A stretch of 58,988 nt of DNA from Clostridia bacterium 41_269 (GTDB taxonomy: Bacteria > Bacillota > DTU086), in the NCBI GenBank assembly GCA_001508005.1, contig LGEZ01000013.1:1-58988 (forward strand), read 5' to 3'. Both the position numbers and the translations under genes were made by a program. The notes under the pieces were generated by a model that worked only from the letters and a program-made list of their open reading frames with translations, had not been told where the DNA came from and ran no database searches. This document shows positions 54,370 to 58,102 of the stretch, piece after piece (the stretch's first letter is position 1; each line of letters begins with the position of its first letter).

Positions 54370-54528
54370 AAAAAAATTAAAGCTCCGAGTGATCTTCCCG
54401 GTCCTTACCACTACTCTGGACTTTTCCGGGTTCCCGCTTCTTCCAGTTCACTTTTACTGGACAGAAACGATTTTTCCGGAAAAACCCATTACCTTCGTGG
54501 TAATTCCCTTTCTGACCTCTCGGAGCTT
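54370..54528 (-). ncRNA. Twin small RNA, copy 1 (novel family candidate)
   Basis: A minus-strand RNA of about 159 nt with its own promoter and terminator. Helices in order: P1 GCTCCGAG/CTCGGAGC closing the molecule and followed by T7 and T6 runs; an inner GGTC/GACC; P2 TTACCAC/GTGGTAA flanked by GAA/AGTA, which resembles a loop E (bulged-G) motif; GGGTT/AACCC; CGTTTC/GAAGCG; and CCAGT/ACTGG at the tip. Copy 2 keeps the same helices with paired base changes. The promoter start site coincides with the first base of P1. It lies downstream of hpt and 190 bases upstream of metF. Confidence 0.8.
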
Positions 54529-54534
54529 GATTTA

Positions 54535-54594
54535 ATAATAACACCTAAATTTACTTTTGTAAAGCAATTTTTAAAAAGTATACCGGTATACTTT
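54535..54594 (-). promoter_or_regulatory. Promoter and upstream palindrome of small RNA copy 1
   Basis: TTTACA (54563-54558), 17-base spacer, TATTAT (54540-54535). Twelve bases upstream of the -35 is a perfect palindrome AAGTATAC-CG-GTATACTT (54576-54593). It starts 6 bases after the hpt stop codon. Copy 2 has the same arrangement with the same 12-base gap. Confidence 0.82.
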
Positions 54595-54598
54595 AAAT

Positions 54599-55117
54599 TT
54601 AATCATTCACAGCCATTATATAGGGCAGATTTCTATATTTTTCTTCCCTGTCTAGGCCATATCCCACTACAAAATCTTCTCCAATTTCGAAACCTTTGTA
54701 ATCAATGTTTAAATTGGCTATTCTCTGGGCAGCCCGATCTAGAAACGCGCATATTTTTATGCTGGCCGGCCCTCTCTCCTTCAATATCCTCAATAAATAG
54801 TGAAGGGTAAGCCCTGTATCCACTATATCTTCTAAAATTAACACATGCTCATTGTGAATGTCTAAATCTAAATCCTTCGTTATTCTCACAACACCTGTTT
54901 GAGTTGCAGGTCCATAGCTGGCAATAGCTAAAAAATCAATTCTATGGGGGATGGTAAGATGTCTTGTTAAATCCACCATAAAATAAACGGCCCCTCTAAG
55001 AACTGTTATTATTATTGGATTTAATCCTTCATAGTCTCTAGAAATCTGCTCTGCCAATTCTTCAACCCTTTTTCTGATTTCTTTTTCAGGAATAATTATC
55101 TTCCCTTTTTGATCCAT
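54599..55117 (-). CDS. hpt: Hypoxanthine phosphoribosyltransferase (copy 2)
   Basis: 172 aa PRTase. The PRPP motif is [12 protein letters not shown] (about 93-104); the C-terminal VVGYGLDREEKYRNLPYI is the Hpt type, close to copy 1 at 15838-16395. AAAAAAGGAG precedes the ATG. It is exactly bracketed by the twin small-RNA genes: copy 2 ends 29 bases before its start, and the palindrome of copy 1 follows its stop by a few bases. It may be read from the copy 2 promoter by read-through. Confidence 0.94.
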   Translation of the reverse strand: MDQKGKIIIPEKEIRKRVEELAEQISRDYEGLNPIIITVLRGAVYFMVDLTRHLTIPHRIDFLAIASYGPATQTGVVRITKDLDLDIHNEHVLILEDIVDTGLTLHYLLRILKERGPASIKICAFLDRAAQRIANLNIDYKGFEIGEDFVVGYGLDREEKYRNLPYIMAVND

Positions 55118-55145
55118 CTTATAAAAATACTCCTTTTTTAAGGTT

Positions 55146-55297
55146 AAAAAAATCAGCCCCGAGTGATCTTCCCGGTCCTTATCACTACTCTAGATCTTCC
55201 CGGGTTCCCACTCCTTCCAGCCCACAACTCTGGATAGAAGTGATTTTCCGGGAGACCCAGCCCTTCGTGATAATTTCCTTTCCGACCTCTCGGGGCT
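55146..55297 (-). ncRNA. Twin small RNA, copy 2 (novel family candidate)
   Basis: About 152 nt, the paralogue of 54370-54528. P1 is GCCCCGAG/CTCGGGGC (compare GCTCCGAG/CTCGGAGC: a T-A pair has become C-G). P2 is TTATCAC/GTGATAA (compare TTACCAC/GTGGTAA). The next helix is CACTTC/GGAGTG (compare CGTTTC/GAAGCG), and the tip is CCAG/CTGG. CCGGGAAGATC occurs twice on the 3' side. The RNA ends in P1 plus TTTTTTT. It lies directly upstream of hpt, so it could also act as a leader. Confidence 0.8.
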
Positions 55298-55303
55298 AAT
55301 TTT

Positions 55304-55361
55304 AGTATATCAAGATTAAATTAATTTGTAAAGAACATTACAAAAAGTATACCGTATACTT
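55304..55361 (-). promoter_or_regulatory. Promoter and upstream palindrome of small RNA copy 2
   Basis: TTTACA (55332-55327), 17-base spacer, TATACT (55309-55304). Twelve bases upstream is AAGTATAC-C-GTATACTT (55345-55361), the same half-sites as copy 1 with a 1-base centre instead of 2. The likely start is about 55297. Confidence 0.82.
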
Positions 55362-55376: not shown

Positions 55377-56387
55377 TTATTCACTATCAGCTTCATCGGG
55401 ATTAATGCCGAACTTTTCTAAAAGCTTTTTATAATCCTTTCGATAAAAGAGTTTAATATTAACATCGGGATACAGTCTCTTTAGTTCCCTTACTTTTCGG
55501 TTTTTCTTGGTAACCAGCTCCTGCTTCATAGTTGTAAGCTCTATATAAAGATCAAAATCTGGGAAATAAAAATCAGGAGTAAAGGCGCTTTCTATATTGC
55601 CTTCACTATCCCATTTAAGGGGAAAAGTAGTGGGCTCATAAAGATATTTGATTTTATAATAATCCAATATTCGGGCAAATTCTTCTTCACTTTTATTAGC
55701 AAATTTCTTAGGTTTCTCCCTATAATCTCCTTCAGCTGACGTCTCATAACCTGCAGCAATCTTTTCTTTTTCTTTTGCAGCTTCTTCTACTTTCGCAAGA
55801 ACTTTTTCAAATCTTTTTCGTGAAATAAGCTTCTTCTGCTTTAGAAAATGGAGTATGAGCTCCGCAGCCTCACCCAATGACATTCTTGTGGTGTTTATAG
55901 TTAGGTCATAAATCTCAGGATCATTCCAGTCGCCCCGATGAAAGTAATAAGTATAAGCTTCCCGCTCCGCATCTTTTTCATTTATCAGCCTTAAAGCAGT
56001 GGCCTTATCCACATTAAACCTTTTCTGAATATTTGAAGACCTTGCTTCAATGGAAGCAACAATTTTAATGTGAACAGCATCCTTGCTGCCCTTAAAAAGA
56101 AACTGACCTCCGCGTCCCAGCAGAATAACAGGTTTATTTTGCGAAAGGTCAGTTATCGTCTTTTTCAAAGTATTGACATATTCCACTCTTTCTTTTTCTA
56201 GTCCATCAACATTCCTAGGAGAAATTTCATTTATCCAATCAAGGCGCATTTCAGGCAGCTCATGTTCCCCTATATACTTATGAAGGGTTTTTTTATTCAA
56301 CAGTAAAAATCCAGTTGCTTCTGAAAGTATTTCAGCGACAAACTCTCCACGGCTCCCAAACTGCCTTGATACGGTTATTACAGCCAT
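55377..56387 (-). CDS. Cytidylate-kinase-like protein fused to a PD-(D/E)XK-like domain
   Basis: 336 aa. Residues about 1-190 match the cytidylate-kinase-like family: ITVSRQFGSRGEFVAEIL (P-loop region, but without the usual GK[ST]), ILLGRGGQFL, HIKIVASIEAR and YDLTINTTRMS. Residues about 195-235 are a charged linker. The rest reads EEEFARILDYYKIKYLYEPTTFPL, TPDFYFPDFDLYIELTTMKQ and KNRKVRELKRLYP, the layout of a PD-(D/E)XK nuclease, with PD...ELT, so the last Lys is replaced by Thr. The fusion's role is unknown. It stands upstream of the small-RNA/hpt module. Confidence 0.75.
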   Translation of the reverse strand: MAVITVSRQFGSRGEFVAEILSEATGFLLLNKKTLHKYIGEHELPEMRLDWINEISPRNVDGLEKERVEYVNTLKKTITDLSQNKPVILLGRGGQFLFKGSKDAVHIKIVASIEARSSNIQKRFNVDKATALRLINEKDAEREAYTYYFHRGDWNDPEIYDLTINTTRMSLGEAAELILHFLKQKKLISRKRFEKVLAKVEEAAKEKEKIAAGYETSAEGDYREKPKKFANKSEEEFARILDYYKIKYLYEPTTFPLKWDSEGNIESAFTPDFYFPDFDLYIELTTMKQELVTKKNRKVRELKRLYPDVNIKLFYRKDYKKLLEKFGINPDEADSE

Positions 56388-56696
56388 AATTATCCTCCAA
56401 TATCATTTATTTCTCCCAGCTAATATTAATTATAAATCTAAAAATTTCTTTTATAAACACTTCCAAAATCATTTCAGCAGAGCAAATTAAAAATTCATAA
56501 CCTATAGTTCATTATACAAAATTTTAGCTGAAAAACCGGCAGTTAATGACATTATTTTAAATATCGATTTGGCCTATCATTAATGTTAAATTACTTGTAC
56601 TGTGATAAAAATAGTTTTTATAATAAATTCATATTTATAAATTTTCGGAAGAAGAATAAAGTACTAAGTTTAAGCGATAAGGAAAGGAAGGTATTT
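56388..56696. other. Intergenic region before the MATE pseudogene
   Basis: 309 AT-rich bases between divergent units. I see no RNA gene, repeat or clear promoter. A GGAAAGGAAGG ribosome site precedes the pseudogene ATG. Confidence 0.5.
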
Positions 56697-58102
56697 ATGG
56701 CAAATAATAATGCTCATGAACTCGGTCTTGTACCCACGGGACGTCTGCTGTGGAAATTCTCGTGGCCTTCAATTTTAGCCATGATGTGCAACTCCCTTCA
56801 TAACATAATAGATAGGGCATTTGTTGGACACGGTGTAGGACCTATTGCCATTGCTGCTACAACTGTTGCTTTTCCAATACTTTTTATGGGAATATCCCTT
56901 TTAATAGGGTAGGAACAACTGCTTTAATTTCTATACGCCTTGGTGAACAGAAAAAAGAAAAAACAGAATTGGTAGCAGCTAATGCAATAACACTGCTGGT
57001 TCTGCTGCCCCTTTGTTTATCGATTATCTATTTAACCCATACAGAACCAATACTGACTTTTTTCGGAGCAAGCCCTGAAGTAATGCCCTATGCGCGCGAT
57101 TTTACTACAATCATTATATTGGGTTCAGTATTCGGAAGTATTGGAATGGGAGTTAATAATTTTATTAGAGCTGAAGGTAATCCCATTATGGCAATGTCTA
57201 CCTAGATTCTGGGGACCATTATAAATATTATTCTAAACTACCTGTCTATTTTTAACTACCTGTCTATTTTTAAAATGGGAATGGACATCAAAGGATCAGC
57301 CCTTGCTACAGTATTGGGACAGCTTTTTGCAACAATATGGATGCTAAACTATTACTTTACCGGCAGAAGCCTTATAAAACTTAAATTAAAAAATTTCATG
57401 CCCAAAATTCCCATATTACTGAGCATAATATCCATAAGGATTCGCTCCTTTTTCTATGCAGCTGGCTTCTTGCATACAGCAGCTAATTTAAAAAAGTCTG
57501 TTCTTAAATACAGTGGAGATTTGGGACTGTTTGCAGTGGGAATTATAATGAGCATAGGCACATTAACGTTTATGCCTATTTTGGGCATTAGTCAGGGAGC
57601 ACAACCCATAAGTGGTTATAATTATGGGGCCAGATAGTTCAACCGTGTTAAAGAAACATTGAAAAAAGCAATCATAGCCAGCACATTTGTTACCACTGCA
57701 GGATTTTTAGCTGTACATTTGTGGCCAGAGAAAAAAGCAGGACTTTTTACAGAAGGCAATGCAGAGCTGACAAAAATGACTGCCGATGCCATGCAGGTAT
57801 TTTTTGCAATGACTTTTGTAATAGGTTTTCAAATCGTATGCTCCCAATATTTTCAGGCAGTTGGAAAGGCTCTGCAGGCTGCAGTACTAAGTTTGTCCAG
57901 GCAGTTTTTGCTTTTCATACCTCTACTTCTTATTTTGCCCCGTTTTTGGGGCATAGAAAGTGTATGGAGAATTGCCCCCATTGCAGATGCTATATCAGTT
58001 GTATTAACTGAAGTCTTCATCATAAATGAATTAAGGCTTCTTCCACAAGAAAAATATTCTTCCACTCTGAGCAAAGAAAAAATTTCTTTTAAAAAACTAT
58101 AA
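56697..58102 (+). pseudogene. MATE-family multidrug/Na+ antiporter, inactivated
   Basis: The ATG at 56697 opens a MATE protein (RLLWKFSWPSILAMMCNSLHNIIDRAFVG), but the frame is broken. A missing base near 56908 causes a TAG at 56910. In the next frame TAG codons occur at 57203 and 57635; the last replaces the Gln expected in YNYGARQ (CAG to TAG). An 18-bp tandem duplication (57236-57271) repeats six residues. The MATE motif GISQGAQPISGYNYGAR and the C-terminal helices are otherwise recognisable. With one frameshift and two stops it is a pseudogene. Confidence 0.9.
57236..57271. repeat. 18-bp tandem duplication inside the MATE pseudogene
   Basis: AACTACCTGTCTATTTTT occurs twice in direct succession (57236-57253 and 57254-57271). 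It keeps frame but duplicates NYLSIF in a region that is fixed in length in MATE proteins, so it is probably a recent slippage event after loss of selection. Confidence 0.95.

Follow-up and report, generated by a model that had tools for sequence, protein, structure and literature searches.

A family of free-standing, structured noncoding RNAs with a dedicated operator is represented by two copies around the hypoxanthine phosphoribosyltransferase gene (hpt) of Clostridia bacterium 41_269, and we are confident that this family is genuine. The window analysed here is the whole 58,988-nucleotide stretch of contig LGEZ01000013.1 from this genome (G000). The RNA is real and is conserved within its bacterial family; at the level of sequence, comparison of its copies establishes a common RNA family, a covarying fold, autonomy and a common operator. 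With it, a poorly known lineage of Clostridia gains a new RNA family that covaries strongly and whose promoter-operator unit is conserved.

Two RNA units flank hpt

Both RNAs lie on the minus strand where the original prediction had placed them, copy 1 at 54370-54528 and copy 2 at 55147-55298, with hpt (54599-55117, minus strand; 197.8 bits against TIGR01203, cut-off 150) between them as a neighbour. Each consists of a rod of helices P1 to P8 followed by a T-run, the helical core occupying 54380-54528 in copy 1 and 55154-55298 in copy 2. The aligned cores are 81% identical, and the covariance-model hits score 156 and 156.8 bits, respectively.

The same order of elements is found at both copies: operator, 12 bp, TTTACA, 17 bp containing an extended -10 TG, the -10 hexamer, 5-6 bp and then P1. 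At copy 1 the operator is AAGTATACCGGTATACTT, a perfect 18-bp palindrome (54576-54593), with the -35 TTTACA at 54558-54563 and the -10 TATTAT at 54535-54540, both on the minus strand. At copy 2 the operator is the 17-bp AAGTATACGGTATACTT (55345-55361), with TTTACA at 55327-55332 and TATACT at 55304-55309 (minus strand). The palindromes and the TTTACA-17-TATNNT promoters that had been predicted are present at both copies, and the TG extension is an addition to that description. The first base of P1 falls 6 nt (copy 1) or 5 nt (copy 2) past the -10, in agreement with the earlier placing of the predicted start at the first bases of P1. A spacing of exactly 12 bp between operator and -35, also claimed, holds for the window copies and for six of the seven copies overall, and fails at the G003:C128 copy, which has 11.

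Seven copies in four related genomes

We searched 61 genomes at the DNA level and 399 genomes of the phylum with a covariance model, R1. Seven copies of the RNA were found, two in the window genome and five in three members of the same family (G001, G002 and G003), which we take to come from anaerobic digesters. G001 carries two copies around hpt in a window-like arrangement, G002 has one ahead of a cytidylate-kinase-like gene, and of the two in G003 one follows hpt and the other lies elsewhere. The model gave no credible match beyond these four genomes among the 399, and scanning GTDB genomes for an exact pattern gave matches solely in the same three relatives. The G003:C128 copy has an apical insertion of about 60 nt and was left out of the model; it still scores 110 bits (E 1e-21). 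All seven copies have the operator, the promoter, the P1 start 5-6 nt after the -10 and the fold in common, and AAGTATACCGGTATACTT recurs without change at one G001 copy, at the G002 copy and at the G003:C70 copy.

Several candidates were rejected. A weak match in G018 (E 0.58) resembles a chance match and is not accompanied by a complete operator, and a 29-base DNA match in G007 lacks both operator and rod. Pattern matches in IMG/VR (L171-L173) were also attributed to chance: the three are near-identical versions of a single coding-like region that folds differently and gets no covariance-model score. Phage and plasmid records gave no match to the RNA.

A covarying rod with a conserved basal half

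Separate folding of each of the seven sequences gives the same rod P1-P8, with energies of -61 to -78 kcal/mol. Copy 1 folds at -69.6 kcal/mol (z -8.3) and copy 2 at -75.1 kcal/mol (z -6.6), and in neither case did any of 200 shuffles reach that stability. Aligned by hand, the helices comprise 46 pairs with 98.4% of cells standard, 16 of the pairs (31 cells) showing changes on both sides; as the alignment was drawn up from the individual folds, it is biased towards the fold. None of 2000 per-pair column shuffles matched the percentage paired, the number of pairs with both-side changes or the number of such cells. Extra pair types were reached in 169 of the 2000 and are not exceptional. When the partner strand is slid by one or two positions, pairing falls to 29-51%. 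RNAalifold applied to plain MAFFT alignments recovered the same helices, with 16 compensatory pairs for seven sequences and 14 for six. The covariation proposed earlier as a check is strong over the seven copies, which, coming from one family, represent few independent events.

The three helix changes reported earlier between the window copies were recovered as U-A to C-G in P1, C-G to U-A in P4 and G-C to A-U in P7, and P7 has additional one-sided changes (U-G/C-G and U-A/U-G). Two copies depart from a continuous helix strand, G001b by a bulged A in P6 and G002 by an extra base in P7. These irregularities are real and not helices misread.

Conservation declines from the base of the rod to its tip, where length and sequence differ widely between copies. 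Most conserved positions are in internal loops, and conservation is lowest in the apical loop. The conserved basal half comprises P1/P2, a purine-rich symmetric loop (RGAAA/GGGAA), an RAA/GGA loop and a GAA/AGUA loop-E-like (bulged-G) motif. Invariant stretches are CCGAG-A-GGU, GAAAGG, the GAA and AGUA strands, and the 17-nt CCGGGAAGATCACTCGG, which makes up the 3' strand of P3-P1 including an internal loop (minus strand, 54385-54401 in copy 1 and 55159-55175 in copy 2). The GAA/AGUA motif, which had been described as kept between the window copies, is invariant in all seven; on the minus strand its AGUA side is at 54412-54415 and its GAA side at 54494-54496 in copy 1, and at 55186-55189 and 55264-55266 in copy 2. 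With conservation of this kind, the base of the rod probably presents something to a partner, putatively a protein.

The same loops could serve a base-pairing sRNA, whose purine-rich segments (AAAGG, GGGAA and GAAGG) would pair with pyrimidine stretches in mRNAs while the RNA is controlled by the same factor. Many nutrient-controlled sRNAs act by base pairing with target mRNAs and duplicated sRNAs are common; the present RNA is stand-alone, promoter-driven, roughly of sRNA size and a member of a regulon. However, the rod is very stable, its conserved purines occupy short internal loops and several of them face each other, possibly as G-A pairs, and inspection of the copies revealed no exposed, conserved single-stranded seed. 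We regard base pairing as a doubtful explanation, yet one to be taken seriously.

The adjoining gene varies

In all seven copies promoter and RNA form one unit, whereas the adjoining gene varies: metF lies downstream of three, hpt of two, a cytidylate-kinase-like gene of one and a convergent DUF2512 gene of one, the isolated copy in G003. A copy with a convergent gene downstream cannot be a leader, and the varying neighbour, together with the lack of an ORF conserved among the seven copies, argues that the RNA is neither a leader nor a coding RNA. The copies do not share a position upstream of one gene or pathway, as leaders or riboswitches would. They have instead what is expected of a free-standing structured noncoding RNA, namely a conserved promoter of their own, a predicted start at P1 and a covarying structure. 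The original prediction of a regulated pair of structured RNAs, or leaders, is borne out as regards a structured pair with a shared operator, but the leader option is not supported, as the neighbours differ. The suggested tie to purine salvage (hpt) or folate is not supported either, given the G002 copy, which precedes the cytidylate-kinase-like gene, and the isolated copy in G003. The hpt neighbourhood looks like inherited synteny combined with local duplication.

We also weighed a cis-acting leader or attenuator of hpt (copy 2) or metF (copy 1), for example a metabolite-sensing one in which P1 and the T-run form a terminator. Copy 2 ends about 35 nt ahead of hpt in G000 and G001, where the T-run is close behind P1, and the 3' strand could form an alternative small hairpin (CCGGG/CUCGG) before the T-run. 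Against this, and besides the change of downstream gene and the convergent copy that had already weakened the idea, hpt and metF occur in G002 without adjoining RNA, and the T-run after P1 is absent in G002 and weak in G003. Both of these genomes have terminator-like hairpins farther downstream, the isolated G003 copy possessing its own. A leader function is therefore improbable.

Other features were noted nearby. The gene at 55377-56387 encodes a cytidylate-kinase-like protein (PF13189) whose additional, conserved C-terminal region has no Pfam name. At 56583-58102 a MATE-type transporter-like gene is split into ORF fragments in different frames, reflecting either a decayed gene or assembly errors; its neighbour in G001 is an intact ORF of 463 aa. 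The presence of fhs and metF nearby suggests acetogenesis in the lineage.

The operator marks a wider candidate regulon

In G000 and G001 the operator, again 12 bp from a -35, is found as well ahead of a zinc-ribbon-like gene of 55 aa that lies upstream of nadD, and the nadD region of G002 has two tandem operator sites, 20 bp apart, with a 12-bp gap. In G003:C221 (L051:265-3927) two tandem Nramp-family genes each follow operator-12-TTGACG, the second having a double operator, 21 bp apart. The 55-aa CxxC...CxxC proteins (L054:613-906 in G000:C23 and L053:3681-3985 in G001:C11) matched no Pfam family.

Outside the family, the pattern GTATACTT-N12-TTKAC-N18-TANNNT gave 17 matches in the 399 genomes; the reversed control gave 2 in all. 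With the gap left free between 7 and 17, the sites outside the family peak at 12 (15 of 51 distinct sites against 4.6 expected, p ~3e-5, an approximate value that assumes a flat expectation and counts related genomes as independent). Named from a reading of their translations rather than from Pfam, the genes behind these operators include glnA, two ANTAR-type response regulators close to glutamine synthetase or pyrG, a PurE-like gene with biotin carboxylase (accC) behind it, a second biotin carboxylase, pckA, dapF and LL-diaminopimelate aminotransferase. From its gene content the regulon looks like anabolic carbon/nitrogen control. In L122, L123, L124 and L125 (G112, G076 and G048) the operator module precedes PurE-like, DUF-like and biotin carboxylase genes or biotin carboxylase directly, and G112 and G076 have a further site ahead of a very small hydrophobic ORF that carries TKK close to its end. 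The RNA was not found when the loci with these distant operators were searched with R1.

That the palindrome lies at a single, constant distance ahead of the -35 suggests that the operator-binding factor is an activator, although a factor bound there could be a repressor instead. We could not match the factor to anything described. A PadR-family gene with a Cys-rich N terminus (L054:101-490, G000:C23) diverges from the nadD-side operator; it is probably not the regulator, being missing from the equivalent place in G001. A CcpN-like HTH-CBS protein is encoded in G000, G001 and G002 and also in G076. There was none for G003 among the matches listed, and CcpN is therefore kept as a lead only. A scripted search for further CcpN-like proteins returned nothing, and the literature offered nothing usable on the operator letters or on a CcpN operator consensus. 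The operator defines a candidate phylum-wide regulon that takes in the promoters of glnA, the ANTAR regulators, biotin carboxylase and pckA, and the identity of its factor would reveal the signal that makes the RNA.

A model for the function of the RNA

Our best guess is a nutrient-controlled, protein-binding noncoding RNA; taken as a whole chain of steps this is tentative, and we put it at a little under an even chance. Each unit would be a gene in its own right, encoding a structured noncoding RNA about 150 nt long. A dimeric transcription factor would bind AAGTATAC-(C)GGTATACTT on the upstream side of a promoter with a weak -35 (TTTACA) and an extended -10, and its position makes activation probable. 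Transcription is predicted to start at about the first base of P1, and the RNA would fold into one rod, P1-P8. Within the window's genus, the transcript would be terminated by P1 and the T-run; the terminator-like hairpins of G002 and G003 are farther downstream. The purine internal loops of the basal half might then be offered to a protein as a decoy or a scaffold. The RNA would be made under a nutrient signal sensed by the transcription factor, and two copies may supply dosage.

A bolder reading is possible, though we think it rather unlikely. Here the RNA would be a new class of noncoding RNA in which the stack of purine internal loops and the bulged-G motif make up a receptor dedicated to a single protein or ligand. 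Its expression on demand would depend on a phylum-wide, undescribed carbon/nitrogen activator binding AAGTATAC-N0-2-GTATACTT at a constant 12 bp from the -35.

Comparison with known RNA families

The original prediction did not recognise the RNA family, and the comparison with Rfam bears this out. Among the Rfam 15 families, the one match to reach its gathering threshold is a c-di-AMP riboswitch at another place in the window (RF00379, 26745-26875, minus strand; 38.4 bits, gathering score 38). At a lax threshold the best E-value for the RNA loci is 3.3, and nothing was found on the homologous loci at E 0.5.

6S RNA (RF00013) is similar in that it is a free-standing rod of about 150-190 nt with helix-closed ends, sometimes present in duplicate. 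The length, long rod and closing helix would be accounted for if the RNA were a divergent 6S RNA, imitating an open promoter and binding RNA polymerase. The minimum-free-energy folds contain only short internal loops and lack the large central bubble, and each of the four genomes has a separate 6S RNA locus (79-115 bits, gathering score 46.4), RF00013 matching this one locus per genome and none of the present RNA loci. This identity is largely refuted and we consider it extremely unlikely.

T-box leaders, with their bulged-G (loop E, sarcin-ricin) motif, resemble the present RNA in its AGUA/GAA internal loop. The strand order in the T-box specifier loop is the opposite, Rfam gave no T-box match, and the present RNA does not lie upstream of an aminoacyl-tRNA synthetase gene.

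The CsrA decoys of the CsrB/RsmZ type are likewise structured, factor-activated and free-standing with several GGA motifs, and a CsrA-sequestering RNA, in which GGA loops titrate CsrA, would be in keeping with the single csrA gene in each of the four genomes and with the 6-10 GGA triplets per copy, several of them unpaired. A passage in PMC8501984 on B. subtilis SR1 provides a precedent for an sRNA whose pairing is promoted by CsrA. CsrB and RsmZ have repeated hairpins, whereas the present RNA is a single rod with its GGAs in internal loops and helices and outside hairpin loops. Moreover, GGA shows no consistent enrichment against dinucleotide shuffles: p ranges from 0.01 to 0.87 among the copies, and in most of them the count is near the shuffle mean. 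CsrA sequestration is thus very unlikely.

SR1 itself, a CcpN-controlled sRNA, is alike in being an sRNA under a metabolic regulator, and the wider regulon described here includes pckA, a CcpN target according to Servant et al. 2005 as cited in a passage of PMC2358912. SR1 differs in encoding the peptide SR1P, whereas the present RNA has no conserved ORF and no sequence or structural match to it, and CcpN is a repressor, unlike the activator that we propose.
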